Shown piece by piece: positions 2,121 to 22,426 of a stretch of DNA of 23,298 nt; the first letter of the stretch is position 1, and every line of letters begins with the position of its first letter. Source of the stretch: Stramenopiles sp. TOSAG23-6 (Eukaryota > Sar). The stretch spans positions 1 to 23,298 of the forward strand of contig LT636006.1 in assembly GCA_900128565.1 (NCBI GenBank). The letters run 5' to 3'. The notes beneath the pieces are model-generated. The model was not told where the DNA came from. It made no database searches and worked only from the letters and a program-made list of their open reading frames with translations. The position numbers were made by a program, and so were the translations under genes.

Positions 2121-4333
2121 TTATTCTGCTGATATAAATGGATCTTCCTCGTCATTATTGACATAACTACTAAATGCTCCAGAATCGATTTGATCTTGTA
2201 CTTGTAGTTCTTTCGCTTGATTCAAATCTGCAGTCGTCATTCCTACATTCGCTTTTAAATCAGCTGTGGATTTTTTTGACAGTGTTTGAAATGTATTATC
2301 AATTTTTATTGCATCCATTTTTTTTATACACTCTGAATCAACATTTTGTGGTTGTGTTGCCTTTGATTCTGTTTCACATTCTTTACCTACCTGAATCCAT
2401 AATTTATTAATAACATCATTTTCTACATCGACATCAACACCTTCTCGGCATACAATGTTCATCATTGCATCAATCATAGGTCGATCTGCTTCACGTAACA
2501 CAGGCCCCGCATTAGATTCAAACATCCAAACTTTTTTTTGAGGATCAAGCATAAAATCTAAACCCATTATCATGAAAGAAGATTTTTCAGGTAATGGTTT
2601 CACTTTCGTCCTCACTGTTTTAGCCAAAATATCAAAAATTTCAAGAACTTTCGGACGAGTTTCTTCCCATAGGTCCCATTCGGACAAAAGAAGGGAACGA
2701 TCTCGAGTAATTTGTACATCTCTATCTAAGTTCCAAGGTGAAAATTCAGAAATTGCAGTGACAAAGTAACCATCATTTATTGTGAAAACAAAATGTCAAA
2801 ATTCGAAATTTGTAAAAAAAATTTAATTGTTCGAATGAAAATGTCTCAACGTAGTAAAAAAAAAAAAAAAAAATCAAATTCAAATTCAAATTCAAATTCA
2901 AATTGAAGTGAACGATAAAAACATACGTGATACATATAAAAATCAACTCTTTCACAATTTCGCGGCGAGTGGAGTAATAAATATATACGCAAATGATGTT
3001 TACGATTATTCACTAAATATGGTAAAATCATGTTTTGTGAAAAAATATTTTTTTTTTTTTTTTTTTACAAAAAAATGTTCTATGAAAAAAGATAAATTTG
3101 AAATCAAATGATGATAGCATACATGGGTTGCACAACGTATGCATTCTCCTTTTCTGCAATCTCCATACATTTTGTGGAGTCTTTCAATAAAAATATCCCA
3201 GTCGAGTAATTTCGTAAAGTCTCCATCATGTATTTTGGAAAAATATTTCAAATTTGATTTTTTTTGTTAGGTATGAAATTTTGTACGAAAAAAAAAAATC
3301 CAAATTAAAAAAAAAAGTTTCAAATTGAAATAATGAAACGTACATGAACCAAACTGACTTTTCAGGATCACCGTCAGATCCAGGAGTCAATGCAGAAGGT
3401 GGGTCTCCCACCCATTTATTATCTCTAATATGCCAAGATGGTGGTGTAAATGGAAAATTTAATGTACCTAATTTTCCTTTATCTGTAATCCATTCATGGC
3501 CTGGAATATCAGCTACACATCGAGAATACACATGTATTGTGAAAAAAAAAAAAATTATAAAAAAAATCGTTAGGTACAAAATTTCGTACGAAAAAAAAAT
3601 CAATTTGAAATTCATGATGAAAATATACATGCTGATCACTGAAGTCTACAGAAACATTATGTAAAGGAGTGTATAATTGAGTCCCTTTCTTTGTTATAAA
3701 CCATTTCACAGAAGGATACTCGGACCATTGTTTACGTTTTGCTAATGCTGCACAGTACCATGGAGCGTGGCCTTCTTGTTTACAATACGAATAAAAAAAC
3801 TTTTTTCGATCTTTATCCGCCACAATTGTACTAAAGTTTTTCACCAATGCCAAATTGTCCGTCAAGTCTTTCAAGAGCTCAAATTGTTCCAATTCTATCT
3901 TACGTGCCATTTCTACTTTGCGCAATAGTTCTTCCTCCTTCAATTTAGATATCTTGTTCTCAATTTCTTTGACCTTGAGATCGCACCTGGCCACCTCAAG
4001 CTGGCAAGAGATACGTGATAGAGACGACGGTGGGGATGCGTTTAGCCTTGATAGCTTCAAGCGAGCTGCAGCAGTCTCTAAACGCCACGTTTGTGCCCAT
4101 GTTGATGCAATCTCTAGCTGTCGTTCCAAATTTTGGCGCTCTATTGTTATCTTTAGCTTCGCTCCGCGTCCAGCAGTCGTGTCGAGATCTTCTAATAACT
4201 CAAACTTTGAAGTAAAACCAGAAGTTGACCCACCAAAGCGACTCCGAACTTTTACATTCCCTTTTCTGCGAGCTTCGGAGTCTGCTGGTCCAGTCCTCTT
4301 CGATTCGGGTTTTGTGGCACTTGGGCCTGACAT
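2121..4333 (-). CDS. tubulin-tyrosine-ligase-like (TTL/TTLL family) ATP-grasp protein, five exons
   Basis: Exons are 4333-3629, 3531-3344, 3227-3123, 3029-2927 and 2774-2121 (stop TAA), joined in frame to 584 residues. Residues 1-235 are mainly a charged coiled-coil region with a basic, disordered start. The second half matches the TTL ATP-grasp core: STGIFLL after an aromatic VWF (about 294-310), VVQP near 329-332, PYLVNNRKHHLRIYLL (about 336-351, the family's PLLI..RKFDIR.YVL motif), FYMYHDGYFV around the exon 4/5 joint, and GLDFMLD (438-444) with FESN (452-455), whose D440, E453 and N455 fit the metal/ATP ligands. Family members add Glu, Gly or Tyr to tubulin tails or other proteins. The usual WI(V/I)KP lysine motif is not obvious here, so activity and substrate are open. 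The third exon has a second open frame, but only the frame used here yields VVQP. The gene is divergent from the giant C2 gene. Confidence 0.8.
2775..2926 (-). repeat. intron 4 of the TTL-like gene, diverged family member (152 nt)
   Basis: It starts GTATGTTTTTATCG after CAC and ends CACAATAAAT before GATGG. Splicing joins FYMYH to DGYFV in frame, which fits the TTL pattern. It is the longest of the set, lacks a clear CTAAC branch site and contains a CAAATT microsatellite. The flanking dinucleotides match at one base only (AC against AT). Confidence 0.75.
2856..2904. repeat. A18 tract plus (CAAATT)5 microsatellite inside intron 4
   Basis: Eighteen A at 2856-2873 are followed by five perfect CAAATT units at 2875-2904. 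The CAAATT/AATTTG word also occurs in the T-rich arm of other introns here, so the array probably arose by slippage from element sequence. It accounts for part of this intron's extra length. Confidence 0.95.
3030..3122 (-). repeat. intron 3 of the TTL-like gene, introner-like (93 nt)
   Basis: The upstream exon ends CAT, the intron opens GTATGC, and its tail is TTTTTTCACAAAACAT. The last three intron bases copy the last three of the exon. No CTAAC is seen; AGAACATTTTTTT occupies the equivalent place. Removal joins VVQP to ILPYLVNN through a split Met codon, rebuilding the TTL motif. Confidence 0.85.
3228..3343 (-). repeat. intron 2 of the TTL-like gene, introner-like (116 nt)
   Basis: The exon ends CAT, the intron opens GTACGT and ends CCAAAATACAT, with branch site ATACCTAAC. 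The terminal CAT copies the upstream CAT. Removal creates a split Met codon and leads into METLRNYSTGIFLL, the ATP-grasp-like frame. Confidence 0.88.
3532..3628 (-). repeat. intron 1 of the TTL-like gene, introner-like (97 nt)
   Basis: The exon ends CAT, the intron opens GTATAT and ends CACAATACAT. It contains the perfect palindrome TTTCGTACGAAA (3582-3593) and branch site GTACCTAACGA. The phase-0 joint gives FSDQH-VYSRC. An AG-ending alternative (TGTAG at about 3513) breaks the frame. Confidence 0.9.
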
Positions 4334-4722
4334 GTTCCTTTAACAGGAAAAGTATAAATTGAAGGAGAAAATTTGAGCAACAACAAATTCTGCAGCGATT
4401 TGATTCGAAATTCGAATTGCGGTTTTTGAGATTGACAGCGGTGCAAAAAAAGGGTACCTAGTAGCTAGGGTTAGGGTCAAAATAATAATAGTATTACATC
4501 TCGAGATCTGATCTGATCAGACAGTTACACTTGTTTGACACTTTACCTCTTCTATTATTATTACCTCTCATTGCTAAAAGATAGCAACAAGTGAATTGGA
4601 GAAGCGCATAAATCCCGTCGCGTTAGATCTTCATGAATACAAAAAAAATATAATAGAAGTAGCCGTTTATTAGTGGCAATGTATTTGTGGGATTTGGTGT
4701 AGCTTGCTGACAAGCACTGAAA
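4334..4722. promoter_or_regulatory. 389-bp divergent promoter region between the TTL-like and giant C2 genes
   Basis: No gene is seen. It must serve the TTL-like gene (start 4333, minus) and the C2 gene (start 4723, plus). It contains GGTACC at 4453-4458, a telomere-like TAGGGTTAGGGT at 4466-4477, and a palindrome-rich patch with overlapping TGATC/GATCA words around 4507-4520. An in-frame TGA about 18 bases upstream of 4723 fixes the giant gene's first ATG. I see no TATA box I would defend. Confidence 0.5.
4453..4477. promoter_or_regulatory. GGTACC plus telo-box-like motif
   Basis: GGTACC (4453-4458) is followed eight bases later by TAGGGTTAGGGT (4466-4477). The same two motif types occur together upstream of the SET gene (16402, 16530 and 16619-16645). 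Telomere-like repeats are known promoter elements in plants; such a role here is inference. Confidence 0.35.
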
Positions 4723-7700
4723 ATGATTGTTACTGATGGAGTCTCCGCCAAGGCAGCTGCAACTAAACTAAAAGCCGGTATTAAAGATGTAGTGAATGGT
4801 GATGAAATAGTCGATTCTACTAATGATGCTTCGCAGAATGAATCATCAGGTCGTGTTAAGGTAACAATCATGGCAGGTCGTCATTTACCACGAGCTGACA
4901 AAAAATCGTCAGATCCATTTGTGGAGTTGTCACTCGGAAATCAAACTTTCACGACAAGTACAAAAATGAAAAATTTGAATCCTGTTTGGCAAGAAGAATT
5001 TGAATTCATTGTTTCAGACTGGAATACTCTACTTTCAACAGAAGTAAATATCGCCGTATATGATTGGGATTTAGTCGGAGGAAATGATTTGATGTGTACA
5101 ACAACTTTGGGAGACTTTGGTACTTTCAATGGAGATCCAATTCGAATGGAAGGATACAACCCACGACAACCTGTCGTTGGCCGCGAAGAATCACGCACTC
5201 TTCAACTCACTAATCGTACAAATGGTAAAGATAAAAATCAACCGGGGGGCATGTTGAGTGTACGGCTTTGTGTTTTTGGCTTTCCTGTTGAAGCTCCTGA
5301 TGGAACTAGTGGGAGTATCAAATCTATGCACGGTATTGACGAAGAAACTAGAAATAGACAATTAGCAAAATTAGCGAAAAACTTTAGTCCATCTGTTAGT
5401 AGTCTCAGAGGTACTTGCAATTGTTTCCTTGTAGGTGGGAATGATTTACCTCGGGCAGATAAAACGTCATCTGATCCATTTGTAGAATTTAATTTAGTAT
5501 ATACNGGTCAAAATACAGTAAATAAACGTAGAAAACAATGTTTTAAAAGTAGTAAAAAAAAGAAAAAGCTTAATCCCAACTGGGATGAGAATTTTGTTTT
5601 CGAATTTGAAGATTGGGATTCTTTAAGTAACTCGTACATTGAAGTAAAGGTTTATGACTGGGATCGTATTGGTAGAAATAAATTAATGGGGACAGCCTCA
5701 ATTATAGGACTAGATTTTATTGCAGGTAAACAGCTTCGAGCTGGTGGGCCTGAAAGTTTTGACAGAACTGAACCACTAGTTGGCGTAAATGATGTTCGAG
5801 TAATACAATTAGAAAACCATACCACGGGAGTTGACAAAGATGAACCAGGTGGTGAAATTAGTGTGAAACTCCGCGTTGAAGGATTTCCAACCAAGAAGCA
5901 AGTCAGTGAAGCTCTTCGATCAATTAGATTAGCAGAAGCAAAAGAAAGACGAGAAGCAAAGCGTAAAGAAGATGCTGAATTCGCACGAAATCTTATTGCT
6001 TTATCTGAAAAAAGCCAGGGATTTAAGATGCTCCGTAATTTCCGAAAAGAAGTAGAAAAGCGAAAACAAGCTAATATTGATTTAGCATGGGAACTCAAAC
6101 TTGAAACAGAAGGGCAGCAAAAGCAAATTCTCGAAAATGAACGAGCTGTGCGTGATAATTATGGTGATATGATTGAGCGTCTTAATCCTGATAAATTCCA
6201 TTGGTCATTGAAAGATGTTTTAGTTGAGTGTCTCATTGAAAAGAAAGCACCGAGTGTTGAAATGTTAAAACAATATTTTATAGATNGAGAAAGCATTGGT
6301 ATGCGGTATCAAGATATGTATGAGAAAGGACGTACTAGAACTGAACACCTCAAAGTACTGGCGGATCTTGAAAAGGAAAAATTAAATCGGAAGAATAGAA
6401 TCCGATTTTCCAAAGTTGCCGCGGAAGACGGCGAAGATAGTGGTGAAGACTGTGGTGAAGATGATGCTGGGAGAGAACTACATGAAGATAGAAAAGAAGT
6501 TGATGATTTAGAACAGAAATCTGGTGAGGCCGAGGAAGTGGAAGGAGATCCTAAAATTGCCGCAGCAAAAATTGCTTTATTGGAAGCTCAGGAAGCAGAA
6601 GATGAAGAAGCTATTGAAGAAGCAAAAAAGGTATTCGAAACTCTAGGTGTTCCTGTGCCAGGTGAGCTTACGTTAGCGCAGATATATGGAAGAACAGAGG
6701 AAGAACAACTTCGATGGGAAGAAAAAACTGCAATTCGATTTCTTGGTGGCATGAACAAAAATTATTATTGTGTCAAGCAATTAGTATCCCGATCACTTCG
6801 GCGCAAAACAAATATTACAATTAAATGGATGAAGCGAGAAAAGCGCAAGATTGATCGTGAAGAGAGTCGCAAGAAAACTGAAGCGAAACAAAAGGAGAGA
6901 CAAAGACTAAAACTTGTACAGACTGAAAAGAAGCAAAGGCATGAAAAACTTAGACGAGCTCGTAAAAAGTTGATAAGACGTGCACTAGGTGAGACCGAAG
7001 AAGAAGCCGAACAGGACAGTTACGATGAGTACTCTGCATCGGGATCTGATATCGAGGATATACTCGCAGATGCACAAGCAGTTGCCTTATCTGCGAAAGA
7101 TAATTTGATCCAATTATATGAAGAGTTTCATGCTGTTCAACTTTCTTTACATGATACCGTAGAGTCCAAAGAGGGTCCTTCATTGGATGAAGATGTAGTG
7201 ACACTCCAGAATCAAATGAAATCAAAGCTCCTAAAGCATGATATTGAAGCAGCCGAAGGTAATTTAAAAACTGTTGAAACAAAACTGCATAAAATTTGGC
7301 TGGCAAATAAGAAACTTGATTCTAGTGTNGATGAAAGTAAGCGCTTATCCAAAGATGGCGACGAAGATGAAGACAAAAACGATGAAACATATTTGAATTT
7401 GCGATCTGAAAATAATGATGATGATGAAGTAGCTATAGGGCAATCTAAAGAACCACACAATGGAAATGAAAATAAGAGAAATGAAAATGAAGAGAAAATT
7501 GACGCTCAGTTTCATGAAGATCAAAACCAGTCTGATTTATGCAATGATGGAAATGAAAGTATCAAGGATATTGATAAAGTTCCGAAAGATCACAAAAATA
7601 CTCAAGATGTAATACGTAACCTTTCTGGTATTCCAAGCACTGACTATACAAATATGTATATATCAAAACCTCGNGAGAAGAAACGTATTACAAAGCGAAG

Positions 7701-10700
7701 GCGTCGACGTAAGAAACGTGGCCGTTTCGCGAAAATTGCTACTCATGTTGGAGGCACCAAATATGCCCATGTAGAACGTGTTATTGTTGGGCGTCTAAAA
7801 AAAATGAAGGAGAGTGACAAGTATAAGGCCTTATTAGAAAAAGCCGCTGAGGCAAAAGCAAAAGCAAAGCAAAAAGCTATCGAGGTTAATCTCAGAGCAA
7901 AAGCAGCTGCAGCAGAAGCTAAACGGTTAGCAGAGGAGAAGCGCAAGGCAATGCGCGATTCTGAAACATATAAAGCTGCTATAGCAAAAGCTAAGAAAAC
8001 TCGAGCCTTAGCAAAACAAAAAGCCGCCGAAAGAGCACATGCTTCGTATAAGAAATCTAAAGAAGCAAAACATGTTGCCCGTATAAAAAAGATCACTTCT
8101 GCAAAGGACAAAGCATTGAGAAAAGAATCTAAAGCTGATACAAAGAAACTTAAAAATCTGCAAAATGCAATTCAAAACATTGAAAAGAAACGTGAACAGA
8201 CTAGACTTCAATTAAACTTGCTCAATGCTGAACCAACCAAAGAAGAGAAACTTGACGAAGAACTCGAACTAGATGCTATGGAGGAAGAAGATAAAACTGC
8301 ATACATTGAACAAAAACTAATCGAAAAGGCTGAAGAAAATGAAGAGTTGAAAGCCAGAATTGATTCTTTTGATGAGGAAATGATNTCTGCGAAGAAATGT
8401 ATTGATACATTCATTGCTACTTGTACTGCTCGTGATAAAAAGCGCCAGGAAGAAGAAGCTGCGATAGCAGCAAAGAAAGCCGAGGAAGCCGCTTTAAGTG
8501 GCAGGCTAAAACTTGAAATTTTGCGAGTATCTTCACTCCCATCAGTGAATGATAAAATCCTTGCAAATCCTTTTGTGGAAATCAAATACAAACCAAATTT
8601 AAATGAAGAGTCCTTATCAGAGTCCAAAAATAAACCCAAAGATGACATTCGGGATGTTCAAGAATTTCGAACTAAAATATTAACAGATACGACTAATCCA
8701 GAATACAATGAAACATTCGTTTTACATATAAAAGATTGGGATGCTCTATGTGCTGGAAAAATTGAAATACATATTTGGGACTGGGACATGATAAATAAAA
8801 ATAAGCTTCTGTGTACTGCCGTAATAGAAGATTTATCATTTCTTATGTCAGAAGAGAGACTTCCTATTAAGTCGAATGATGCAGATAAAGACGAACCTGT
8901 GTTGGATATATTAGATACGCGAACAATTGAATTTCATAATTCTGAGTCTACTTCATTAGAAATGAATAATAAAAACGCCAATGCAGATTTGAAAATAGGT
9001 GTACCCGAGAATGATACTGATGAAGCCGATAGTGAAAATAATAATATCAGTGATGAAGTCAAAAATGCGGACGAAAAGGCCAAAATGTACGTCAATCTCA
9101 CTGTATTTGGATTCCCAATGTCACAGTATAACAAGGTAATGGGTATAAGNGAAGAAATTCCTGAAGTAGAAACCAAACATGAATCAGATAAACATGTGGT
9201 TGCATTAGATATTGATGAAGCTGATACAAATATGTCTGCTGTAAAAAAATCTACAGAGATACACGATAAACTTTTACTAGAGCTGAATAGTGCTAAACAA
9301 ATGATGGATGCCGCCAATGAGAATTTAGAAGCGCAGAAATGTAAGCGGATTGCGAAGGAATCATTGTTGGAAGAAGCAACTAAACTCCTCGAAACTCNGG
9401 AAGATGAGGAGGAGAGACGTGATCAACAAAATTGCATTGAGGACTTAAAAACTGATCTCTTATCTCAAATAGAGAGTGAGGAAAGTAAAAGTGAAATTGT
9501 AAAACGTATGAAATCAGAATTAGTACTAGCAGAAGCTGCTTTGGCAGCAGAAGTAGACGCTCAGAAATCAACACAATCACTATATACATTAAATACATCA
9601 TTAGCCAAATCAAAAGAATCAAAATCTTCATTGTTCTGGGAAAAAGTCCAAAANAAATTCAAAAATGGACGAAGGCGTGGTGTCACTACAATTAAGTTGA
9701 GAAATGAGACACCATTAATAAAGGCAATACGAGCAAANATGAAGATTGTTAGGGAACACGAGCGTGTAATTAAACTTCAAAAGAAAATGAAAGAAGCTGT
9801 TGCTCAAATGCAAAATAAAGCTATTACAAAATTGCAAAACACCACAGCTGCTCGTCATGCACATACAGCAAAACAAATTACATTAGCTGCACATCAAGCT
9901 TTTATTCAAAGCAATGCCTACAAGTCAACAAAAGAGAAAGCACTTAGAATCAAAAAGCATTTAAATGACCCCGAGAAAAGAGCGGAGATGAAAGCAAAAT
10001 TAGAAGACAAACGAAGGATTCTCAAAGAGAGAACAGCAAAACTTAAACAAATGTTGCAGGAAAAGAAGGAGTTTACGATGGCCAAAGCAGTAGAGTTAAA
10101 GAAACAAATGGAGGATCGTAAACTTCGCTTGGCAGCAATGGGAAAAGAAGAGAGGAAGGCATTTTTAGCAAATGAAAAGGCCGAGAAGAAGGCCAATCGA
10201 TTAAAACGTGAAGTTGAAGATGAAAAATTACTTGAAGAAGAGAAACAAAGGAAAGATGCCGAAGAATGGAAGTTAATGCAAATGACTGAAGAAGAACAAA
10301 TGATTCATAAGGCAACACTTGAAGAAGAGAAAAAAATAAAACTTGAAGCAATGTCTACAAACGAACGCCAATCATACCTTTATGAAGAACAACAAAAAAA
10401 ACAGCGTTTGAGGAAAGCGAAGATGTGGGTTAAAGTAAGGCGCCACCGGCGAAATCTTGAAACCAGGGTATCAAGATTTAAAGAAACAATCCTGTCATTA
10501 AGAGATGCAGAAAAACGAGCACTACTTCTCGANGAAATGAGAGACCGAATGGCGGATGCTGCGGAAAAGAAGAAATTGGACCTCATCATTAAAGCCCGAC
10601 AGGCGAAAGAGCTTGCTACAAACAAAGAGAAGCGGAAGGAGTTGAAATTACTTGCAAAGAAACGAATGCGTGAAGCCAAAGAAAAAGCAATGGACAANGA

Positions 10701-13700: not shown

Positions 13701-14568
13701 AAAGCTAACTCTTGACCAATTGCGACGCATACAACTAGCAAAAGTATTTGTCAGTGAGGGCTGGTGGGAGACATATGCTATATTGGCTCTTGAACGCATG
13801 GGTGATAATATCGAGAGTGCCCGAGAGTATTTGCTCAACGGGCATGCCAAGGATTATTACATAGCAACAGAGGCGATCCGCTGGGGAATGTCAAGAATTA
13901 ATTCCCGTTCTTTTGAAGATCGATGGCGAGATCCTCACTTGGAAGCTTGGAAAAATAAGTCTCCTTGGGATCAGAGACATGTTGCATGGTTACAGCGAAC
14001 AGCACGTTTGCGACCCGTTCAACTTCCAAAATGGGTATGGCGATTACATCCTGAGTGGAACTGGCTTCGTTATGGTTGGTCAGAAAATCTTTTGACACAG
14101 AGCGCTTATGCAGCAACAGAGGAACGAAGAAATCATCTAGTAGCCGAAGCAGCAGCTGCGGAGGCAGCCAAAAATGCACCAAAAGTACCTGGTTTGGACA
14201 TGTCATCTGTTGGAAGATACGATGAAAATGGCAACTGGGTTGAGGGTGGCGAAGAACTTGGATATTACGACGAATATGGAAATTTCATTGAAATCAATAC
14301 TGAAGGCCAGCTTGATTCTGTTCCCGATGGAGAAGGTGGGGAATATTTTGTAAATATGACCGTGGACGGATTTTGGGAGAGTGAAAATATGTGGTATGAA
14401 GCTGATATTGTAAGACTTTTCGAGGATCGATGTAGTATAAAGTGGCACATCGACGATTCTGTCAGTGATGATATTCCTTATTCATTTATAAGACCTTTTA
14501 AAGAGGGTAGTAAAGAACAACGCCAGACGGATGCACTGACAGAATTAGGACAGCGCTACTCTTGGTGA
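4723..14568 (+). CDS. giant intronless triple-C2-domain protein, 3281 residues, with IQ, UBA-like and Tudor-like segments
   Basis: One open frame runs from ATG (in-frame stop just upstream) to TGA at 14566-14568. C2 domains lie at about residues 43-187, 229-390 and 1259-1466. The first has all five expected Ca2+-binding Asp positions (D59, D64, D114, D116, D122). The second has lost the last (K320), and the third has N1282 in loop 1. Each ends in a strand closing with GFP (VFGFP, VEGFP, VFGFP). Between and after them are very long Lys/Glu/Ala-rich helical stretches. An IQ motif (IQTRVRVFLAR, about 2263-2273) suggests calmodulin binding. A Trp/Gly-rich region at about 2287-2480 (FLRSCDGCYV, YLEWDQPGD) could be beta-trefoil-like. 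Residues 2995-3046 resemble a UBA helix bundle (MGDNIESAREYLL). Residues 3203-3261 resemble a Tudor fold (WYEADIV...IKW), after a YDENGNW/YDEYGNF pair. It may be a Ca2+-regulated membrane-cytoskeleton scaffold; that role is inferred. Sixteen N positions lie inside. Confidence 0.93.
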   Translation: MIVTDGVSAKAAATKLKAGIKDVVNGDEIVDSTNDASQNESSGRVKVTIMAGRHLPRADKKSSDPFVELSLGNQTFTTSTKMKNLNPVWQEEFEFIVSDWNTLLSTEVNIAVYDWDLVGGNDLMCTTTLGDFGTFNGDPIRMEGYNPRQPVVGREESRTLQLTNRTNGKDKNQPGGMLSVRLCVFGFPVEAPDGTSGSIKSMHGIDEETRNRQLAKLAKNFSPSVSSLRGTCNCFLVGGNDLPRADKTSSDPFVEFNLVYXGQNTVNKRRKQCFKSSKKKKKLNPNWDENFVFEFEDWDSLSNSYIEVKVYDWDRIGRNKLMGTASIIGLDFIAGKQLRAGGPESFDRTEPLVGVNDVRVIQLENHTTGVDKDEPGGEISVKLRVEGFPTKKQVSEALRSIRLAEAKERREAKRKEDAEFARNLIALSEKSQGFKMLRNFRKEVEKRKQANIDLAWELKLETEGQQKQILENERAVRDNYGDMIERLNPDKFHWSLKDVLVECLIEKKAPSVEMLKQYFIDXESIGMRYQDMYEKGRTRTEHLKVLADLEKEKLNRKNRIRFSKVAAEDGEDSGEDCGEDDAGRELHEDRKEVDDLEQKSGEAEEVEGDPKIAAAKIALLEAQEAEDEEAIEEAKKVFETLGVPVPGELTLAQIYGRTEEEQLRWEEKTAIRFLGGMNKNYYCVKQLVSRSLRRKTNITIKWMKREKRKIDREESRKKTEAKQKERQRLKLVQTEKKQRHEKLRRARKKLIRRALGETEEEAEQDSYDEYSASGSDIEDILADAQAVALSAKDNLIQLYEEFHAVQLSLHDTVESKEGPSLDEDVVTLQNQMKSKLLKHDIEAAEGNLKTVETKLHKIWLANKKLDSSXDESKRLSKDGDEDEDKNDETYLNLRSENNDDDEVAIGQSKEPHNGNENKRNENEEKIDAQFHEDQNQSDLCNDGNESIKDIDKVPKDHKNTQDVIRNLSGIPSTDYTNMYISKPXEKKRITKRRRRRKKRGRFAKIATHVGGTKYAHVERVIVGRLKKMKESDKYKALLEKAAEAKAKAKQKAIEVNLRAKAAAAEAKRLAEEKRKAMRDSETYKAAIAKAKKTRALAKQKAAERAHASYKKSKEAKHVARIKKITSAKDKALRKESKADTKKLKNLQNAIQNIEKKREQTRLQLNLLNAEPTKEEKLDEELELDAMEEEDKTAYIEQKLIEKAEENEELKARIDSFDEEMXSAKKCIDTFIATCTARDKKRQEEEAAIAAKKAEEAALSGRLKLEILRVSSLPSVNDKILANPFVEIKYKPNLNEESLSESKNKPKDDIRDVQEFRTKILTDTTNPEYNETFVLHIKDWDALCAGKIEIHIWDWDMINKNKLLCTAVIEDLSFLMSEERLPIKSNDADKDEPVLDILDTRTIEFHNSESTSLEMNNKNANADLKIGVPENDTDEADSENNNISDEVKNADEKAKMYVNLTVFGFPMSQYNKVMGIXEEIPEVETKHESDKHVVALDIDEADTNMSAVKKSTEIHDKLLLELNSAKQMMDAANENLEAQKCKRIAKESLLEEATKLLETXEDEEERRDQQNCIEDLKTDLLSQIESEESKSEIVKRMKSELVLAEAALAAEVDAQKSTQSLYTLNTSLAKSKESKSSLFWEKVQXKFKNGRRRGVTTIKLRNETPLIKAIRAXMKIVREHERVIKLQKKMKEAVAQMQNKAITKLQNTTAARHAHTAKQITLAAHQAFIQSNAYKSTKEKALRIKKHLNDPEKRAEMKAKLEDKRRILKERTAKLKQMLQEKKEFTMAKAVELKKQMEDRKLRLAAMGKEERKAFLANEKAEKKANRLKREVEDEKLLEEEKQRKDAEEWKLMQMTEEEQMIHKATLEEEKKIKLEAMSTNERQSYLYEEQQKKQRLRKAKMWVKVRRHRRNLETRVSRFKETILSLRDAEKRALLLXEMRDRMADAAEKKKLDLIIKARQAKELATNKEKRKELKLLAKKRMREAKEKAMDXDTRQQGFNVLAKLKTKLYKKASQAKKAAMATKAAKKAMEKLEQAQKSETYQKALAAAEXAKKKAMESSVMQNAMNSEAMQAALKYKENAKLDTQFRKKESLSVRLKNMAKNNMATEALSKQVFKIKKKAVSLKADIDRAAEERGLKVIVDWKEDPIGASKHITRQTRAIIEKKYEWSKKYRQRVSTLQYKVRILLAMRKLNLLRRDHQKRMESADWIIAQYRLRLTRRLIAKSRHQKNVMAKRIQRLAMIFLGKLLHIRLFSIREKAVVCIQTRVRVFLARPFLMRWKQRKQFQNCVFPGSRIFLRSCDGCYVQPEALTRRMIAKPPKEQRSFFCRFSVGTCYRRYRHSSSIVLNGDPISFKSHRRSYISSAPKIFGRSGVERRGCPRGGIFDKRFSSGVHFDYKTMQTTKVLTAAKYLEWDQPGDXQLWRIYKDPAERHSQPQIVSGDLVLLINEESREALSCENGVLGTIPLTRGAKYWCYFNIIIEGYEKTGDGRILVSKANLTASLVNEMKLAKMPGTTTFRKRLFRMERSLQPFVRSKSFIALENARXNPGIHDKRDEEARRALREAIDTFDKTLPTLFLGASRTCSICIFSDGTVEXCSFGIDTETQKQARLQKEFQESLEVVTEDTKKANESNEWISLRDAWEKARSDVASHTKSIKNSRKYKDFIFNLSVAQTDLETLHEEETKANARILHLKRAVGNSTKKSRSVLRKEAREDKLKSERXTKRAELQKIMKESKAAMVNMVEGGSAVNILADKVQTCFEQVNEYMCAHLLGVNRIMDEYYDRAKIHAEWLEKSLKHTKTMKFEIDRIGINYEYGCKEIAESIVYAAPTVGFDGGFYIPKKYQISDSSRHVIAPLASQCILGKILSDGSLQLTGIREQWSQEVFLDSNSVRKAAVCLQWNPQEKKKRKKRRKKKRNGRNGKNKSPRSRKHSTDISTVSTTSSTPESISPIHSPEIPKKSAIIPIIPSKEELKCWSLIEGAIDAQSKDKDGAGKKLTLDQLRRIQLAKVFVSEGWWETYAILALERMGDNIESAREYLLNGHAKDYYIATEAIRWGMSRINSRSFEDRWRDPHLEAWKNKSPWDQRHVAWLQRTARLRPVQLPKWVWRLHPEWNWLRYGWSENLLTQSAYAATEERRNHLVAEAAAAEAAKNAPKVPGLDMSSVGRYDENGNWVEGGEELGYYDEYGNFIEINTEGQLDSVPDGEGGEYFVNMTVDGFWESENMWYEADIVRLFEDRCSIKWHIDDSVSDDIPYSFIRPFKEGSKEQRQTDALTELGQRYSW

Positions 14569-14594
14569 TGCTGCCTTGTGAACATTATATTCAA

Positions 14595-14600
14595 AATAAA
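14595..14600 (+). terminator. possible AATAAA poly(A) signal of the giant C2 gene
   Basis: AATAAA lies 26 bases after the TGA stop, within the 45-bp gap to the convergent SET gene. If used, cleavage would fall inside or just past the SET gene's 3' coding end, so the transcripts would overlap. The lineage's true signal is unknown. Confidence 0.3.
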
Positions 14601-14613
14601 TACAATCTAAAAA

Positions 14614-16376
14614 TTATTTCAAATCAGATTTTATTTTTTTCATTAATATCATAAATTCTTCTACAACTACTTTCTCGGCATAAATCATTGATTTCACATG
14701 TGACCATATACCAACATCATTTTTACTATTCATTTCATTTTTAGCAACATCAAAAACATCAAATCTTTTTTTTGCTTTTTTTGTCTTCTCAATCAAAAAC
14801 TTCCCAACCTGAAAGAGACATCTGAATAATGTATTTTGGAAAAATATTTCAAAAAAAAATCGTTAGGTACGAAATTTCGTACGAAAATAAATTCGATTTT
14901 TTTGTTAAAAAAAAAATAAAACATACACGCTGCTTCATTCTGTGGACTAATACCAATACTACTATTTTGATCTATCCTATTACCATAAGCAAGTTGGATA
15001 CTATTTTCATCTTCAAACTCAAGGGTTGACATTAGAATAACACGCAACGCACCTGTATTGTAGGAAAATATTTCAAATTTGTTTTGTTAGGTAAAAAATT
15101 TTTATAAAAAAATAAATTCGATTTTTTTGTTGAAAAAAAAATAAGACATACCTAGTGTAGTTGGCATCGCACCAAGTGACGTCACTATTAAAGGAGTTTC
15201 AGTACCAATATCAATGCCGCTTTTATAAGCTTTGAAACATCGTTGATGAAACTGAATCATATTTTGATTCTCAGAGTTATTTTTTATCTTTATTTTCTTT
15301 TCTTTTGTTTCATATACATCCAATACACGACATTTTGGTAAACGTTTTACAGCATCACCTAAACTCATTTGTAAAGAAGCTTGTGGCTGAACTATAATTT
15401 TATTCCCAATAAAGTAAGACGCAGTAAATCCATACTGAGCCAACAATTTATCATCTCCAAGCCATGATCCATAGCTAATGTAAATTTGTTCACCAACCGA
15501 AATATCAGAAATTAACTTTACTTCATAATGAGTAGTATCATTATTCGATACAATTGCATTTGGCGTATGACTGTGATTCAATAAATCAAACAAAGGAATC
15601 ATCACTCTTTCTTGATAATTGTTTTTGGTACCCAATTTCCTACCTAATTCTGAATATGTATCGAATGTACCGTCATGAAAATCAAATGATCGAGATAAAA
15701 CTAATGATAATACATATTCAAAATCATGATGAGCAGTAAAACCAATACCACTTACACCAACATCAACAGAAGTAGCCGGATTTATATAAAGTTCAAATGC
15801 CCGTTTTTCGTGTTCTTTCCTCTTCTGCAGTAGAGTATGCAAAGTAGTGCCTTTAATAACATTTAGCATCTCTAAAGACCACTTATACATATCTGACGAT
15901 TGCGGTAGACTCTGAATGTAAGTAGACAACCAATCGTGTTTTTCTTTACATAAATTCGAATTTGTATTTTTTAGTTGTTTCTTTAGGTAAAGCAAAAATC
16001 GTGCAAATGCTATAGTTTGCCTATCAAGATCACAACCCTGACTTGTATCTTCTTGGAATAATATATCACTATATACACCATCTTCATCAAAGTACGAGAG
16101 AAGAAAATCTTTCCGTATTGCAAGCTTCTTAGGAACTTTGAAAATGGAAGTACCCTTTTTAATTATTTTTGAGCTAAATACACCACGGCCCTGACCAGGA
16201 GCTTCTCTGATTTCTAAAGACTCTTCAATTACACCACCCCTTTTTAAAACTTCGTCATACATTGAAGGGAATACATTCTTAATATTGTATATATCATTAA
16301 TAACAAATGAAAACACAAAGTTCCTCAAAAGGAGAAACAAGAAAAGACCCACTTTCAACTTACTTTCGGGGTTCAT
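14614..16376 (-). CDS. SET-domain protein lysine (or histidine) methyltransferase, SETD3/Rubisco-LSMT type, three exons
   Basis: Exons are 16376-15152, 15052-14927 and 14828-14614 (stop TAA), giving 521 residues. Residues 8-25 (VGLFLFLLLRNFVFSFV) form a hydrophobic N-terminal segment, either a signal peptide, the first part of a plastid leader or an anchor. The SET domain spans about 60-304: GQGRGVF near 61-67, the interrupting helical insert, then PLFDLLNHSHTPN with NHS at 267-269, SYGSW at 301-305 and YGF at 315-317, the usual SAM-binding and catalytic region of this class. The C-terminal part (LRVILMSTLEFED onward) resembles the LSMT substrate-binding helical domain. The family methylates Lys (Rubisco LSMT, SETD6) or His (SETD3, actin); the substrate here is unknown. 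It is convergent with the giant C2 gene, 45 bp apart. The first intron is the only one in the window with a canonical AG end. Confidence 0.88.
14829..14926 (-). repeat. intron 2 of the SET gene, introner-like (98 nt)
   Basis: It opens GTATGTTTTATT and ends CCAAAATACAT, with the palindrome TTTCGTACGAAA (14875-14886) and branch site GTACCTAACGA. The frame needs the cut after ACAT. The nearest AG (TTCAG, six bases on) is out of frame. The flanking dinucleotides match at one of two bases (GT against AT). Its first 43 bases differ from intron 1 of the same gene at about two positions. Confidence 0.9.
15053..15151 (-). repeat. intron 1 of the SET gene, introner-like with AG end (99 nt)
   Basis: The upstream exon ends AG, the intron opens GTATGTC and ends CTACAATACAG. 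The AG end looks canonical but also copies the exon's AG, as in the other introns. Branch site TTACCTAAC. It is a close copy of intron 2, which lies 126 bases downstream in the gene. Confidence 0.92.
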
Positions 16377-16401
16377 GTGATTTTACGGACTTGTTTTTTC
16401 T

Positions 16402-16535
16402 GGTACCTGGACTCTATCCACAGTAAAAATATAGCGACTAACACACCCACGAAAATTGACAATACTATTAATGTAAGCGAAGGCATTGAGATCTTAATGC
16501 GTTGTATACTGGCAAGAATGATCTACTTCGGTACC
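16402..16535. promoter_or_regulatory. two GGTACC motifs upstream of the SET gene
   Basis: GGTACC occurs at 16402-16407 and 16530-16535, about 26 and 154 bp upstream of the SET ATG at 16376. This repeats the pattern seen near the small gene and the TTL-like gene. Function is inferred only from the recurrence. Confidence 0.35.
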
Positions 16536-16618
16536 TATCTTAAATATTTGTGTTCTTTCCGATTTATTTCGATTTCGAGATTTTTTTGAGTCGAAGTCAG
16601 CCGTCAGCTTCAAAATAT

Positions 16619-16645
16619 CACCCTATCCCTATAACCCTAACCCTA
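16619..16645. repeat. telomere-like CCCTA cluster beside the AIRIM-like stop codon
   Basis: Four CCCTA units lie at 16621, 16627, 16635 and 16641, the last two forming AACCCTAACCCTA. The cluster directly abuts the AIRIM-like stop codon (16646-16648) and lies about 245 bp upstream of the SET ATG. With genes on both sides it is interstitial, not a chromosome end. Confidence 0.8.
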
Positions 16646-17691
16646 TTAACTCATTCGGACTCGTTCTTGACACACTGCAATATACCTCAAATTCATTCCA
16701 GATCCAGAGGACGAATTAGACCAAAATTTTATACATTGACGCAACGCATCTAGCCCTTCTAATTTTCTATCTTGAATACTATCGCGACTAAGTTCAATCA
16801 TATTTTTTGGACTTTTTTCTAAAGTTGCGATACCTGCAACAAGCAATACATCAATTAAGTGTGTATTTTGGAAAAATATTTCAAAAAAAAAAAAACTAAA
16901 ATTTGTTAGGTACAAAATTTCGTACGAAAAAAAAATCAAATTTGAAAAAAAATAAAACATACGTTTCTTTCGAGTTGATTCCGTGTAATGCATATTAATA
17001 ATCTCATCGACCCACTCCATATAATCTGAGACAGATATCGGATGCTCTATTGTACGTGTGGTTTGGTCTTCAAAATTCAATGATGTTACGCATTGCGATA
17101 CTTCATTCTCCATATCGATTGCAATATGGATTGTGAAAAAATATTTTTTTTTTACAAAAAACTAAAAAATTCGTTAGGTACAAAATTTACTATGAAAAAA
17201 ATCTAGCTAAAAATTAAATTCTGAAAACGTACATCTTGAAGATGTTTTGTAAGAGTTTTGATAGCTTTCATGTTTTTCTCTAGTAACACTCGATGTTTAT
17301 ATAGTAGGCGTTCCTTAAGACCATCAAAAAAATGCAGTGGTGTTGAAATCCCGTTCTCTTTGGTAAATGTATCATAGATACAAGGAACCCGACTTGCAAC
17401 ATTTATCAGAGATGATATAGCGTTTTCACACCGATGCTCCGTATTTAACCATTCTTCATGGAATTTCATGATGCGTACGAATATACGATTCCAGAATTTT
17501 AGAGCAGATATAATACTGCGAGAAGCTTTTGTGGGGCTAATCTGATTTTCTATATTTATTAGAGATAAATTATTGTCTTTGGTTTTTGCCGCATCACGTC
17601 TCTCTTTTTCTAAAACTCTAGCCTTTTCTCGAGCTTCCCTATTTCGTAGGAGCTTACGTTGGTTTGCAGTATATCCATGATTTCCTTCCAT
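16646..17691 (-). CDS. AIRIM / C1orf109-like ribosome-maturation factor, three exons
   Basis: Exons are 17691-17233, 17125-16963 and 16860-16646 (stop TAA), giving 278 residues. Residues 1-40 are a basic helix (KLLRNREAREKARVLEKERR). A helical core follows, with LKERLLYKHRVLLEKN (about 127-142). The signature is at 183-208: ISVSDYMEWVDEIINMHY then RKKH. I recognise it from human C1orf109, which I recall as PSVADMLEWLQDIERHY followed by KRKY and then, 18 residues on, a PK pair. The spacing here is identical (H208, then 18 residues to PK), which also fixes the second splice joint. The human protein works with the AFG2 (SPATA5/SPATA5L1) AAA ATPases and CINP in late 60S maturation and genome maintenance; the same role here is inference. 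The basic N-terminus and a longer C-terminal tail are extra relative to the human protein (203 residues). It is divergent from the coiled-coil/WD gene. Confidence 0.75.
16861..16962 (-). repeat. intron 2 of the AIRIM-like gene, introner-like (102 nt)
   Basis: The exon ends AC, the intron opens GTATGTTTTATT and ends CCAAAATACAC; the terminal AC copies the exon's AC. It contains TTTCGTACGAAA (16918-16929) and branch site GTACCTAAC. The joint gives RKKH-LIDVL, ungapped against the human homologue. The next AG (TTGCAG) is in frame but would delete ten conserved-length residues. Confidence 0.9.
17126..17232 (-). repeat. intron 1 of the AIRIM-like gene, introner-like (107 nt)
   Basis: The exon ends AT, the intron opens GTACGTTTTC and ends TTTCACAATCCAT, with branch site GTACCTAACGA. 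Phase 0. Two AG-ending alternatives stay in frame here (just after the branch site, and at ATGGAG), so this intron alone does not decide between rules. Confidence 0.8.
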
Positions 17692-17987
17692 GGAACTTCA
17701 AACAATATTTAAGGCAATTCTTCTATAACAATCACGGGCGCCTATACAATATATTGAAAATAACCTTTTAATATCCTCAAGTCGTGTGTGGAATGAGTGA
17801 GAATAAAAAAGGTATAGCGCTTCGAACGGCTTCGTTTCTGTCAGGATTTTTTGATGTCCGAGGATTTCGTGTTTTGCTACCGGACCGACGGTTACCCAGT
17901 GAGCGTAAAGAAGATGACATAATTCTTTTACAAAAAAGAAAAGATGAAAAAAGGCCATCTTAATGGCATGTCGATTCCAGCGAATCA
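17692..17987. promoter_or_regulatory. 296-bp divergent promoter region, AIRIM-like / coiled-coil-WD genes
   Basis: It separates two divergently transcribed starts (17691 minus, 17988 plus). It is noticeably more GC-rich from about 17815 to 17915 than other gaps and holds a 56-codon plus-strand frame (17793-17963). It has neither GGTACC nor the telomere-like motif found in the other two upstream regions. Confidence 0.45.
17793..17963 (+). CDS. possible small ORF, 56 residues, unrecognised
   Basis: ATG at 17793 to TAA at 17961-17963, ending 24 bases before the ATG of the coiled-coil/WD gene. The peptide runs from MSENKKGIALRTASFLSGFF through a basic-acidic tail ending KRPS. It has a plausible amphipathic start (LRTASFLSGFFDVRGFRVLL) and is more GC-rich than the surrounding non-coding DNA. 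It could be a small gene, a uORF or chance; no family is recognised, and a 96-codon frame overlaps it on the other strand. Confidence 0.25.
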   Translation: MSENKKGIALRTASFLSGFFDVRGFRVLLPDRRLPSERKEDDIILLQKRKDEKRPS

Positions 17988-20900
17988 ATGAAAAAGAACA
18001 AAGGTGGGAATCGCCCCAGGGGGTTCATCTCATATGATCCTTTTGCTGATATGGCTGGCAGAAGCGGCTCTACAAAAGTAAAAGAGGTTCAAGGAGAAAT
18101 TTCTGATCATGTGAAAGCTTTGACCGATCCAGTTATTGAAGTTGGAACACCTCCAGAACCTCCGACAAAAGGTTCAGAAATTCAATCGAATCCCAATTCG
18201 AAACCTGAATCAAATCAGGAAGACATTACTCCTAACCAAAATAGTCAAACAAGTCAAAAAGTGCCTCAGTATAATATAGAAACTGTAGGTGAAGAAGACT
18301 TTGAAGATGTCTTTGACTCGGATGATTCAACAAGGTCAATGACACCCAGAGGATCACCAATCCCACGAGGCAGACGAAATAGAAAACTGTTTTATGAAGG
18401 CCGAGAACTTGTACAATTAGAACTAAAAGCTGCAGAACAGACACAAGTTTTGAAAGAGAAACGGCGAATTTATGAAGAAAAACAAAAAAACAATTCTCTT
18501 GCGCTTGTACGTTTTATATGAATTTCTAATTTAATTATTTTTTTCATACGAAATTTCGTACCTAACAATTTTTTTAAGATTTTTGTTGAAATATTTTTTC
18601 ACAATACTTCATCGTCGATACGTGCAACGCTTAAAAGAAATTGACCAAGAGGATAAAGAATCCATTAGAGCCCAAATAGAAAATACAAAACTACTTACTC
18701 AAAAAAGGGAACTCCAATTAGCTCAAAGAAAAGTCGATTTATTACACGAAGAAAATCTTCGTAAGCATGTACGTTTTCGAAGTTGAATTTCGAATTTATT
18801 TTTTTTTCGTAAATTGTTTTTGTATCTAACGATTTTTTTTCTTTACTAAAAAACAATTTCACAATGCATGACCGTGATATTGAGCTCGAGAGGGTAGTTG
18901 CAAGAAAACTTCAATTAGAAGAAATTCAGGAACGGAAAAGGCAAATGTATGCTTTATTTTTTTTCAATTTCGATTTGTTTTCGTACTAAATTTTGTACCT
19001 AACGATTTTTCTTTTGAAATATTTTTTCAAAGTACATATCGGAGCAAGTTCGATTACGCAAGCTACTTTTAGAAGAAGTTCAAGAAGAGAGAGGTCGAAG
19101 GGCAAATGCGAAAGCAAACCGTTTGCAGGAAGTTCTTGCAAAAGCAGAATATGTGCGTTTCCTTCATGCATTTTAAATTGTTTTTTCGTACTACATTTTG
19201 TACCTAACGAATTGTTTTAAACCAAACAAAAAAAAATATTTTTTCGCAATACATCTTCAAAAGGAAATTAACTCTGGCGCTTTTGATGCCAAAGACAGAG
19301 AAACCTTCGCTGCTGAGTTTCTGAAAGAAGATACAGATAATGATAATGTGTTTCATTTAACCGAAGAAATTTCTGGAGCACGACATAAAGAGTTTATGAA
19401 GCGGCAAAGACAGAATGAGGAAGAAATGACCCAGCTAACAAATAAACGTGAAATTTTAGATGTTGAACGTGCAAAGTTATTGGATAAAAAACAAAAATTA
19501 GTATCAATACAAAACAAAGGAATTGAGTTTATGGCAGATATTGAAAGAGGGCTGAAATCAGAGTCTGATTTATCTCCAAGACCATTGAATGATCCCAAAT
19601 CAATCGATGAAGTTGAGATGAAAGATAACAAAACTGTGAAAGAATTTGCTGAAGACCTGAGAACAAATCGACCTTATAGACAAAAGAAAATACAATCTTT
19701 GAAAGCAGACCTTTTTGTTTTAGAAGCTGAACGTATTCGAGCAAAACCGAAGTTGCATATGCTTCCAGAATACGATGGAAGACTCGGAATTTCTTCTTAT
19801 CCACCAGAAAGTCAAGAAATGGTAAAATGGCTTCGTGAGATAACTGTGGAGCTTTGTGATGAGATAATGAATGCATTTTATCTTCGAGAAATAACATTTG
19901 AAAATGTTGAAAAAGAGCGAATCCTTTATGAAGAAAGTAAAGCTCTATTAGTAAAGCGTTATTCGGCACGAGCTACTGATCGTGCTATTGATGAAATCAC
20001 CGCGACTGCGGTTTTGGATGTTGTCCAACAGCAAATTCGAGAAGTGCATAAAGAATTTTCGTATTTGTATGAAGTTGCAACACAGATGAGTAATCAGCTT
20101 CTTCTGAACACAGTACTGGAACGGCGATCTGTCACGAGCATACTACATATAGAAAATACAAAGGACAACACAAAAATGTCAGATTTTACTAAAGCATGGA
20201 AAGCTAGAATATTAGAATTCTGTAGAAAACAACAAGTAAAGAATCGTGATAAGCGTGATCAATCAGGAGAAAAAGTTCGCCTTGATCCTCCTTACCAAAA
20301 TTCTCCTCTAATTCCGTCAAATAAAGGAAAAGCTGTTGTGCTTCTTGTTGCAGAAAAGGGTAAAAAGGCTCTTGAAAAAGAAGAGAAACCAGAGAAAAAA
20401 GGTAGAAGTTTCTTTATGAAACGAACTGGAGATTCAGATTCTTCTGAAGATTCTGACGATGAGAACAATGCATTAATTAAGGAGAAAGATGTCACTTACT
20501 CGAAACTCCACGACTCGGATACCATAAAAGTTTGGGTTCCTAATTATGAATCTGAAAAGGGCTTAAATAATACCAGTAAAGAAGCTGCACACAAAGAAGA
20601 AAAAAAATTCTTCAAGAATGTGCATTACACGTCAGCTTCATTTTCAACACCTAAGGAATATGGTGCTGTAACATGTTGCTCATTAGGATATCACAGACAG
20701 ACCCTTCTTGCTGTTGGTACCGCATCTGGTGTTGTTCTTATATATCGCGTTAGTTTGCCACCTGCAAGACTGCTACATGTTCTCGAACATAAAAGAGTTA
20801 TTCCTAAAAAGAAGACATTAGATATGAAAACTTTTGATCCATCGATGGTTCACCGCAAGAAGAAGAAAAAAGCAAAAAAGTGTGCAGCGGATAGTATAAG

Positions 20901-22426
20901 TTGGAGTTTCGATAGTATGCAATTATCAGTAGTACATGTTGATGGGCAAGTGAGAGTATGGTCACTGGCCCATCACTCTACAGAGAAAGCTGAAACAAAA
21001 GAAGAGATGCAAAATGCTCATGGTGTAGTGGATGATGCTGAGGATGTCAAACCCCAGATACACTCGTACCCATCGATAGAATTATCAAATATTGACTTTC
21101 AACGCTGCGCGGTAAATAATAATATCGGTTTAAATAAAAAAGGCAAAAAGACTAAAAAGTCAAAACAAAAAGAGAAAGAGGAACTCGTATCTTTAGAGCC
21201 GATATTATCATGTTTTCACCCTGCAGCGACTTTTCTAGGTTTCCAGACGTCAATAATGTGTGCGGTACGACATGGACATGTAATAAAATGGAATGGTTTA
21301 GATGAAACTGAAACTACGCCTCTTTTATTCAATAATATCTCACCATATGAGCCACTCTACAGAGGTGAAGAAGCGAATGACATTAAAGAACGGCTCGCAC
21401 AGGAAGTCAAACGGGAATTCTTTCAGTGTCATAGGAATACAATTATTTTAATGAATTTTTTGGAAAATACAACATCTACAATGGTCACTGTTGACAAAGC
21501 TGGACTAATTTGTGTATGGAATTATAATACCGATAGCTTTTCTGGATACGGATGGTTTGTACCTTTTAAACAATATCAATTAATTTTACCTATAACAGAT
21601 TTGAATACAGATATTAAAAAAAGCAAGACAAAAAGGAATAAAAAAGGAAAACAAAAGATTGATATTTTATCTGCAAGATTAACAATATCAGGAAATGAAA
21701 TTATTATGATAGCCAAGACTCCACAATCCCATGGAGGCAACAGAATACTTATTTTTGATCCTGTGAAAGGACAATTTTTGAGGTCACAGATAAAGCTTTC
21801 ATCATCCATCAATTCTCATTATTTTACAGTTTCACCAGTGCTTGATGCCACTTGTTCAGACTATGTATATTTATATAACAAGGGCAAATATTTGGTTTAT
21901 TCACTGGCCACAATGAAAAAGGTAAAAGAAGTAACGTTGTTAGCTGATACAGGAAAAGAAAGGCAGACAACACAGCCATATATTACACGAAATCATAGTC
22001 AAATAGTCATTTGTGTAAAAGGTACAACAGACGTCAAAATCAGAACAATTGTCGATACAAATTCATTTGAGAACCCACCAACAATATTTTCTAAATTCGA
22101 GCCCCAGAAAGATAAAAAGGAGGGATATTGTATGTTATCATTTTCCCACACTTTTTTAAAAATTTATTTATTTTGTACCAAATATTGTATCTAACAAATT
22201 TCAAACGTAAAACATATTTCTTCACATTACTTCTAGTTTTGAATCCGATGATGAAGAATATCGTGAAAACTTAAAATTTAGACCGCGCTTTCACTCAGCT
22301 TCTTCCGAATATAGAGTCCGTCGCTTTATGTATGACATCTCAATTTTTAACGTAAAGAAAGAAATTAGAAATATAGTGTCTGATATTGTCGCTGAAGCAA
22401 CAGAGAGAGCAAAAACACTTTGGTAA
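17988..22426 (+). CDS. large coiled-coil plus WD-repeat protein, six exons, about 1312 residues
   Basis: Exons are 17988-18506, 18610-18768, 18870-18946, 19038-19152, 19255-22129 and 22233-22426. Residues 1-140 are polar and disordered. About 140-345 is a continuous charged coiled coil spread over five exons. Helical segments follow to about 640, including a well-folded-looking stretch near PEYDGRLGISSYPPES. An acidic Ser-rich patch (SDSSEDSDDENN) precedes a beta-propeller region from about 755 to 1230. Its recognisable WD-type strands are LLAVGTASGVVLIYR, DGQVRVWSL (about 856) and KAGLICVWNY (about 1042), with long basic loops between them. I do not recognise the protein. Cilium-associated and vesicle-tethering proteins combine such parts, but no motif decides. 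The last exon ends TTTGG-TAA. A GT-AG alternative would add 30 residues and end at 22665, close to the convergent DCP1 stop. Confidence 0.8.
18507..18609 (+). repeat. intron 1 of the coiled-coil/WD gene, introner-like (103 nt)
   Basis: The exon ends CTT, the intron opens GTACGTTTTA and ends CACAATACTT; CTT is copied exactly. Branch site GTACCTAAC lies 43 bases before the end. The AG just after the branch site gives a stop. Phase 0. Confidence 0.9.
18769..18869 (+). repeat. intron 2 of the coiled-coil/WD gene, introner-like (101 nt)
   Basis: The exon ends GCAT, the intron opens GTACGTTTTC and ends CACAATGCAT; GCAT is copied. Branch site GTATCTAACGA. The joint is KH-DRDIELER. An AG alternative (ATTGAG) is also in frame and would drop five residues. 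Confidence 0.88.
18947..19037 (+). repeat. intron 3 of the coiled-coil/WD gene, introner-like (91 nt)
   Basis: The exon ends AT, the intron opens GTATGC and ends TCAAAGTACAT. Branch site GTACCTAACGA is 34 bases before the end. Phase 2, making a split Ile codon. Both nearby AGs (CAAAG, ATCGGAG) break the frame, so the non-AG end is well supported. Confidence 0.92.
19153..19254 (+). repeat. intron 4 of the coiled-coil/WD gene, introner-like (102 nt)
   Basis: The exon ends AT, the intron opens GTGCGTTTCC and ends TCGCAATACAT. Branch site GTACCTAACGA. Phase 0, joint AEY-LQKEIN. An AG alternative (TCAAAAG) is in frame and would remove three residues. Confidence 0.87.
22130..22232 (+). repeat. intron 5 of the coiled-coil/WD gene, introner-like (103 nt)
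   Basis: The exon ends TT, the intron opens GTATGTTATC and ends TTCACATTACTT; TT is copied. Branch site GTATCTAAC. The joint GYS-SFESDDEEY opens a 64-codon exon. Using CTAG four bases later with the same 5' site gives a stop after 13 codons. It would fit only with a GT four bases downstream (GTTATC). Confidence 0.88.

Follow-up and report, generated by a model that had tools for sequence, protein, structure and literature searches.

Introners, mobile elements that generate introns, are among the main candidates for explaining how introns can be gained suddenly, and few rules of splicing are as constant as the AG at the intron end. Here we analysed a stretch of 23,298 nt from Stramenopiles sp. 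TOSAG23-6 (assembly GCA_900128565.1, contig LT636006.1, positions 1 to 23,298; hereafter the window), in which several genes are interrupted by near-copies of one intron. We found that these repeated introns are an introner family and that, judged from the sequence, the window introns appear to use no AG acceptor. It is highly probable that they are intron-generating mobile elements, mostly of about 80-115 bp, which lie in the nuclear DNA of a MAST stramenopile (probably MAST-3) and act by the mechanism described below.

Introners within non-canonical introns have been described in Amoebophrya A25 and A120 (Syndiniales; Farhat et al. 2021, PMC7789003). The part of that paper considered here resembles our case in its repeated non-GT-AG introns, short direct repeats spanning the boundaries, spread like that of transposable elements and canonical introns alongside. 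However, it reports 252 and 1,954 families, whereas we found one related family with a constant GTAYGT, CTAAC and tail. The Amoebophrya ends pair through inverted repeats of 8-20 nt, while the inverted ends here (GTAY...RTAC, by eye) measure only about 4-6 nt; repeats of the 8-20-nt type were not seen in our element ends, which received no dedicated copy-by-copy repeat search. The direct repeats are 3-5 nt there and 2 nt here, and no clear signature in the first and last two nucleotides is given there, whereas here GT is kept and only AG is lost. The host is a dinoflagellate in the former case and a stramenopile in the latter.

Introners of Micromonas, Aureococcus, Florenciella, Symbiodinium and others were surveyed by Gozashti et al. 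2022 (PMC9860276) on the basis of annotated introns, with rare GC and GA 5' sites. As here, the passages of the survey considered describe near-identical introns in many genes of aquatic protists, elements carrying splice sites, target-site duplications (in part of the families) and restored mRNA length; the same passages describe no family with systematic non-AG 3' ends and do not mention MAST. Among the titles listed from openly licensed papers, none deals with this family or with MAST introners. In Fritillaria borealis (PMC13326754), which has non-canonical introns and divergent U2AF paralogues, splicing takes place at 3' ends that include AU and AC; in the portion of that report used here, the host is an animal, the introns have diverse ends and a U2AF duplication is demonstrated. 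The nonconventional introns of euglenids share the non-consensus borders, but euglenid introns are reported to have RNA structure joining the ends, whereas our introns have a mean folding z of -0.8 versus shuffles (24 introns). Introners themselves are already known, and what would be new among them is a family whose own tail replaces the AG rule.

Copy number and extent of the family

The family is present in many copies. We built a profile hidden Markov model (HMM) from 11 window introns, searched 190 kb of other contigs from the same assembly, and obtained 77 matches at E<10 and 58 at E<0.01, spread over 16 of the 19 loci surveyed. The reversed 190 kb gave no match, and one dinucleotide shuffle gave a single match at E 0.99 and none at E<0.01. 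With up to three mismatches, the 21-nt core matched the 8.03-Mb, 408-contig assembly 1,180 times forward and 1,107 times in reverse (2,287 strand matches), counts that include assembly duplicates and near-palindromic cores matching twice; the reversed core pattern matched 0 times on either strand. In the window the core pattern has, again with up to three mismatches, 8 matches, one being the palindrome of another, and 100 shuffles gave none. A strict full-length pattern (GTATGT, exact CTAAC, ATAC, limited spacing) yielded 606 assembly matches against 22 in the control, a few of its matches being one element counted twice or non-elements; assembly duplicates are counted here too. Extrapolation from 46 strict elements in 213 kb gives about 1,700 in the assembly.

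A similarity search with 7.85 kb of the window returned at least 235 matches (40 of 1,344 candidates scored). Among the matches listed, full-length copies of about 100 bp reach an identity of up to 97%, and most matches have both ends close to the intron borders, no more than a few bases away, with a few extending 10-20 nt further. The median pairwise identity was 92% in 32 copies picked for high similarity. The exon flanks of 24 young copies each matched their own site only, except one upstream flank found on two contigs, which indicates that the repeated unit is the intron and not the gene. In collections of viral contigs and genome contigs, which possibly leave out records of this genome, the core pattern had 0 exact matches.

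The preliminary description had proposed an introner-like family from the window alone. This proposal is borne out by the 2,287 core matches against none in the control, by the 58 further profile matches at E<0.01 beyond the window, and by identity that spans the whole intron, reaches 97% and exceeds that of shuffled sequence.

For the tests below we used a catalogue of 109 unique elements, chosen by motif thresholds and not by frame, a few of whose tails are mis-set. They come from the window (10 of its 13 introns), the 190-kb survey (36), window-like stretches (35) and other loci (28); L023, an assembly palindrome, was excluded from the surveys.

Intron borders and the non-AG 3' end

The introns begin with GTAYGT, have CTAAC as an internal motif and finish in a fixed tail, CACAATAC, followed by two further bases (NN). 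In most matches the similarity stops near the exon edges, and excision appears to restore the coding sequence, as judged from the protein. When the intron is taken from GT through AATAC plus two bases, the frame is kept in 43 of the 47 introns with both flanks clearly coding (33/35 in an earlier pass on an overlapping set). By contrast, the frame survives in 14/46 when the intron is ended at the first AG from the tail onward, and in 15/46 with the first AG after the branch site, both at chance level. The phases of the 43 in-frame introns are near even (16, 15, 12); the length is a multiple of three in 13, and retention of 31 would introduce a stop.

Conserved proteins place the borders to about one base. 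Excision restores the kinesin junctions QSVH|VPYRDSKLTRLL (QSVH|VPYRDSKL) and HGT|SGKLLQEA. It also rejoins kinesin LLMDSL|GGTSKTLMIA across two back-to-back introners at L042, where shifts of -1 to +1 are allowed, and the Rho junction NER|VVSKEEGRQLA at L047, where shifts of 0 to +2 are allowed and leftward shifts lead to a stop. Only two positions satisfy both the DSL and the NER case, namely the stated border and the position a single base to the right of it. The motifs expected at the kinesin and Rho junctions are those generally known for these proteins, and the joins themselves were computed. In the plus-strand 1,312-codon gene of the window, four of five junctions align without gaps to the homologue P0241 (EukProt, 46% identity over the part searched), and the fifth is poorly aligned. 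The P0241 protein has no insertion at these four junctions. We rejected a TA-bounded excision shorter by 6 nt, which both the conserved junctions and the P0241 junctions contradict.

The same loci hold unusual copies. At L042 (G000:C76:2400-2860, from 152), two introners abut inside kinesin DSL|GG with no exon base between them, the second beginning exactly at the 3' end of the first, and L021 has at 7482/7587 what looks like a second back-to-back pair. On the minus strand of L047 (G000:C187), the introner in the Rho GTPase has a GA donor (GAACGT), and its excision restores NERVVSKEEGRQLA.

With the 3' end at the tail plus NN, hardly any intron ends in AG: across the 109 copies the last two bases are AT in 76, TT in 12, AA in 6, TG in 5, AC in 4 and AG, GT and GA in 2 each. 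An AG is present between the branch site and the 3' end in 44/109. The donor is GT in 108/109 (mostly GTATGT or GTACGT) and CTAAC is found in 105/109, features for which the catalogue selects, and the branch A lies a median of 41 nt from the intron end. Because the introns have no AG end, the 3' splice site would be chosen by the tail or by the distance from the branch site. Such 3' ends, the 2-bp repeat described below and the exact restoration of the frame had gone unmentioned in the preliminary description.

Three known intron types do not fit. A minor U12-type AT-AC intron would have an ATATCC-type donor and a branch site near the 3' end, unlike the donors and the branch distance given above. 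A canonical U2-type AG end is found in 2/109 copies, and a downstream AG fails the frame test. Structure-guided splicing in the style of Amoebophrya or euglenids was considered too and rejected, folding z-scores in the 24 introns ranging from -2.0 to 0.9. In the minimum-energy folds the core formed a hairpin in 15/24 and the intron ends were paired in 16/24, both counts being without a control, and one of six core pairs showed covariation above shuffles.

Canonical GT-AG introns are present in two Rab genes of the same assembly (GTACGT...TTTGTAG and GTAAGT...CATGTAG), from which we infer a spliceosome. The second of them (L046, G000:C308, minus strand) contains the introner core and CTAAC, so that a canonical intron may have arisen there from an introner or given rise to one. 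A Rab copy at L046 would join AQGI|FMVYS, but an in-frame TAA follows later in the last exon, possibly reflecting a pseudogene or an amplification error. Seven conserved-gene stretches held 7 introner introns and 2 canonical ones, with L044 free of introns. A frame-based scan for GT...YAG introns outside the catalogued elements found 5 in 213 kb versus 5-6 with decoy acceptors; canonical introns are either rare in these 213 kb or were missed by a scan of uncalibrated sensitivity. Most introns of the genome would then be introner-derived.

Taken further, a transposon would have rewritten the 3' splice-site rule of this genome, with one introner family supplying most introns, its tail plus NN accepted instead of AG, and an older GT-AG minority remaining. 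We give this proposal roughly even chances. If it is true, 3' recognition in the host is relaxed or retuned to the element, for example via U2AF or a fixed distance from CTAAC. An abundant, partly young and well-bordered family without AG separates the creation of introns by insertion from the 3' needs of the spliceosome.

Insertion, spread and competing explanations

Identity between the left and right NN reached 90/109 (expected 75.4, 0 of 4000 shuffles) and 78/109 (expected 68.4, p 0.002). This excess was found at one offset only, the next two positions and other offsets showing none at p<0.05, and the covarying pairs include AA/AA, AC/AC and TT/TT. These data give statistical support to a 2-bp target duplication, mostly of AT and later drifting, the signal being weak or blurred by that drift.

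The elements lie in sense orientation. Seven of the 109 copies had flanks of insufficient length for testing frame and orientation and were dropped. Of the 102 left, 47 were sense on both sides, 41 had one sense and one undecided flank, 12 were undecided on both and 0 antisense on both. Among the 48 decided on both sides, 47 lie in coding sequence in sense and 1 is mixed. Such a bias fits removal from RNA and speaks against elimination from DNA.

In the mechanism that we propose, the element enters the genome as DNA at a short target, which is mostly AT and often ATG, and leaves about 2 bp duplicated. The 5' splice site GTAYGT, the branch site CTAAC and a 3' tail rich in U (TTTTTYCAMAATAC) would come with it. 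Excision by the spliceosome, together with one copy of the duplicated dinucleotide, would then give back the original coding sequence. DNA transposition, spliceosomal removal and the mode of 3' end recognition are the steps that we infer.

Several observations weigh against this account. When the left NN is other than AT (n=40), the right NN is identical in 16 copies and AT in 20. One of the 102 oriented copies has mixed flanks and one a single antisense flank. No empty allele was found at 24 sites tested within the same assembly. We found a single open DDE_3 (Tc1/mariner-type) transposase gene (G000:C298:6479-6913, L088), and 3.2 kb around it held no introner-like ends and no exact inverted repeat of at least 12 nt; no transposase sharing the element ends was found in this search, which left out families other than DDE_3. 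Neither U2 nor U6 small nuclear RNA was found in the partial assembly by family search (U2) or patterns, the U2 search being one in which no positive control gave a signal; Rfam at gathering thresholds found only an 18S fragment in 249 kb. Four of the 47 junctions are out of frame (L035, L038, L059, L076); we judged L035 and L038 to be tails mis-set by the script, and L059 and L076 are unexplained. Finally, a duplicated NN makes GT...AT and AT...AC borders indistinguishable in the mRNA. A perfect AT repeat leaves both readings and only an imperfect one fixes the terminal dinucleotides; an AT...AC-type shift is excluded for two copies only (L042 and L047).

Some of these points would suit spread through RNA, in which an excised intron is reverse-spliced and reverse-transcribed and the common dinucleotide is a target preference. 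The missing transposase with matching ends among those searched, the inverted ends of just about 4-6 nt and the imperfect 2-bp repeat (16/40 non-AT cases) are all in its favour, and strict sense orientation follows from it directly, although selection could equally give that orientation. Yet reverse splicing duplicates no target bases, and from copy to copy the left NN varies together with the right NN, at a single offset. We regard RNA-borne spread as rather unlikely. Much less probable is that the copies are not introns and are internal eliminated sequences (IESs) of the ciliate kind, which are cut out of the DNA of a somatic nucleus. Ciliate IESs are removed precisely, leave one copy of a short direct repeat and have short inverted ends; our elements share this pattern of removal, and TA lies close to both ends. 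On the other hand, 47 of the 48 copies decided on both flanks are sense on both, GTAYGT and CTAAC are conserved, and several copies have no TA in the tail (GCAT, CCAT, TCAT). A TA-bounded cut would also leave 6 extra bases at the conserved junctions, and the host is a stramenopile, with long open frames that use each of the three standard stops.

The 3' end could also be an ordinary AG lying inside what we take as the downstream exon, since in the window introns an AG is seen by eye within a few to about 35 nt 3' of the tail. That end keeps the frame in 14/46 introns against 43/47 for the fixed tail end, and conserved residues would be lost; we give it only a very slim chance. Least credible, with next to no probability, is that these are ordinary U-rich introns with common splice motifs, alike only through the AT-rich splicing consensus and T-tracts. 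It is refuted by identity of up to 97% over the full length and by 0 matches at E<0.01 in shuffled or reversed DNA. A 16-nt near-palindrome 5' of the branch site, to our knowledge not a known splicing motif, also counts against it.

Host, assembly and genes of the window

A eukaryotic 18S is represented on one contig of the assembly by its first 564 nt. An actin-related protein is identical in 373/373 aligned residues to a EukProt entry labelled GSMAST32, and its other relatives among the matches listed have at most 45% identity, apart from one further identical protein. By this protein sequence, the host is a MAST stramenopile. It is probably MAST-3, according to our interpretation of the label GSMAST32; alpha-tubulin was of no help in the placement.

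The EukProt model of this actin-related protein lacks two open coding stretches, whose bounds look like GT and AG. In this one gene, the missing stretches are as expected if a gene finder had forced GT-AG introns on the genome. The published MAST-3F assembly has 21.1 Mb, an N50 of 7,132 and 2,694 genes, and the accompanying paper states, in the part considered here, that too few complete proteins were available to train a predictor on it. Non-AG introns may be linked to this gene count and to the trouble with prediction. The introner family also suggests why automated gene models in the lineage may fail, one gene model having been compared.

Contigs 13 and 14 are identical where compared. Large inverted duplications lie within L023, G000:C2 and C173, and by coordinates also in C37 and C369; these inflate copy counts and suggest whole-genome amplification of single cells. 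At L054 and L074 (G000:C206 and C257), one upstream exon flank is followed by an introner and then by two different downstream exons, perhaps an amplification chimera at the repeat, or else a real rearrangement.

The window contains 13 complete introns in four genes, three on the minus strand and one on the plus strand, and, at 1-45 on the plus strand, a partial intron with the tail CCAAAATACAT, an introner of which only the 3' part is present because the contig ends there. All had been listed in the preliminary description, and all belong to one sequence family. Excision leaves single open frames of 1,312 codons (plus-strand gene), 584 (TTL-like), 521 (SET-domain) and 278 (C1orf109-like). The gene names are Pfam matches; the plus-strand gene has beta-propeller matches only, below threshold.

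The plan attributed earlier to all of these introns (GTAYGT, T-rich arm, core and CTAAC) is common to 11 of the 13, with the near-palindromic core TTTCGTACGAAATTTYGTAC and the tail GAAATATTTTTYCAMAATAC. The other two, at 3030-3122 and 2775-2926, keep the head and tail and have no core. The shared tail is better written as TTTTTYCAMAATAC plus NN. The best example of the palindromic core with its branch site (GTACGAAATTTCGTACCTAAC and the preceding bases) lies at 14862-14887 on the minus strand.

On the minus strand, the TTL-like gene has introner introns at 3228-3343 and 3532-3628, in addition to the two introner-type introns without the CTAAC core. Excision of 2775-2926 gives ...FYMYH|DGYFVTAI and that of 3030-3122 gives VVQPM|ILPYLVNNR, each in one open frame. 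The SET-domain gene, also on the minus strand, has introner introns at 14829-14926, with up to 97% identity to other copies, and at 15053-15151, where AG is both the left and the right NN. In the minus-strand C1orf109-like gene they lie at 16861-16962 (up to 97% identity to other copies) and 17126-17232.

The plus-strand gene has five, of which those at 18507-18609, 18769-18869 (GCAT at both edges), 18947-19037 and 19153-19254 (LQKEINSGAFD) give the gapless junction alignments to P0241. The fifth, at 22130-22232 in the 3' part of the gene, is in frame, and P0241 is poorly aligned there.

The intron-bearing genes had been called five adjacent genes, which is loose, as an AKAP28-like gene and a 9.8-kb intron-free C2-domain gene lie between them. 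The latter is an open frame of 3,281 amino acids at 4723-14565 with three C2 domains, without introns over 9.8 kb and with intron-bearing genes on either side. Just 3' of the stop of the plus-strand gene, a minus-strand introner fragment lies at 22440-22489 in non-coding sequence.

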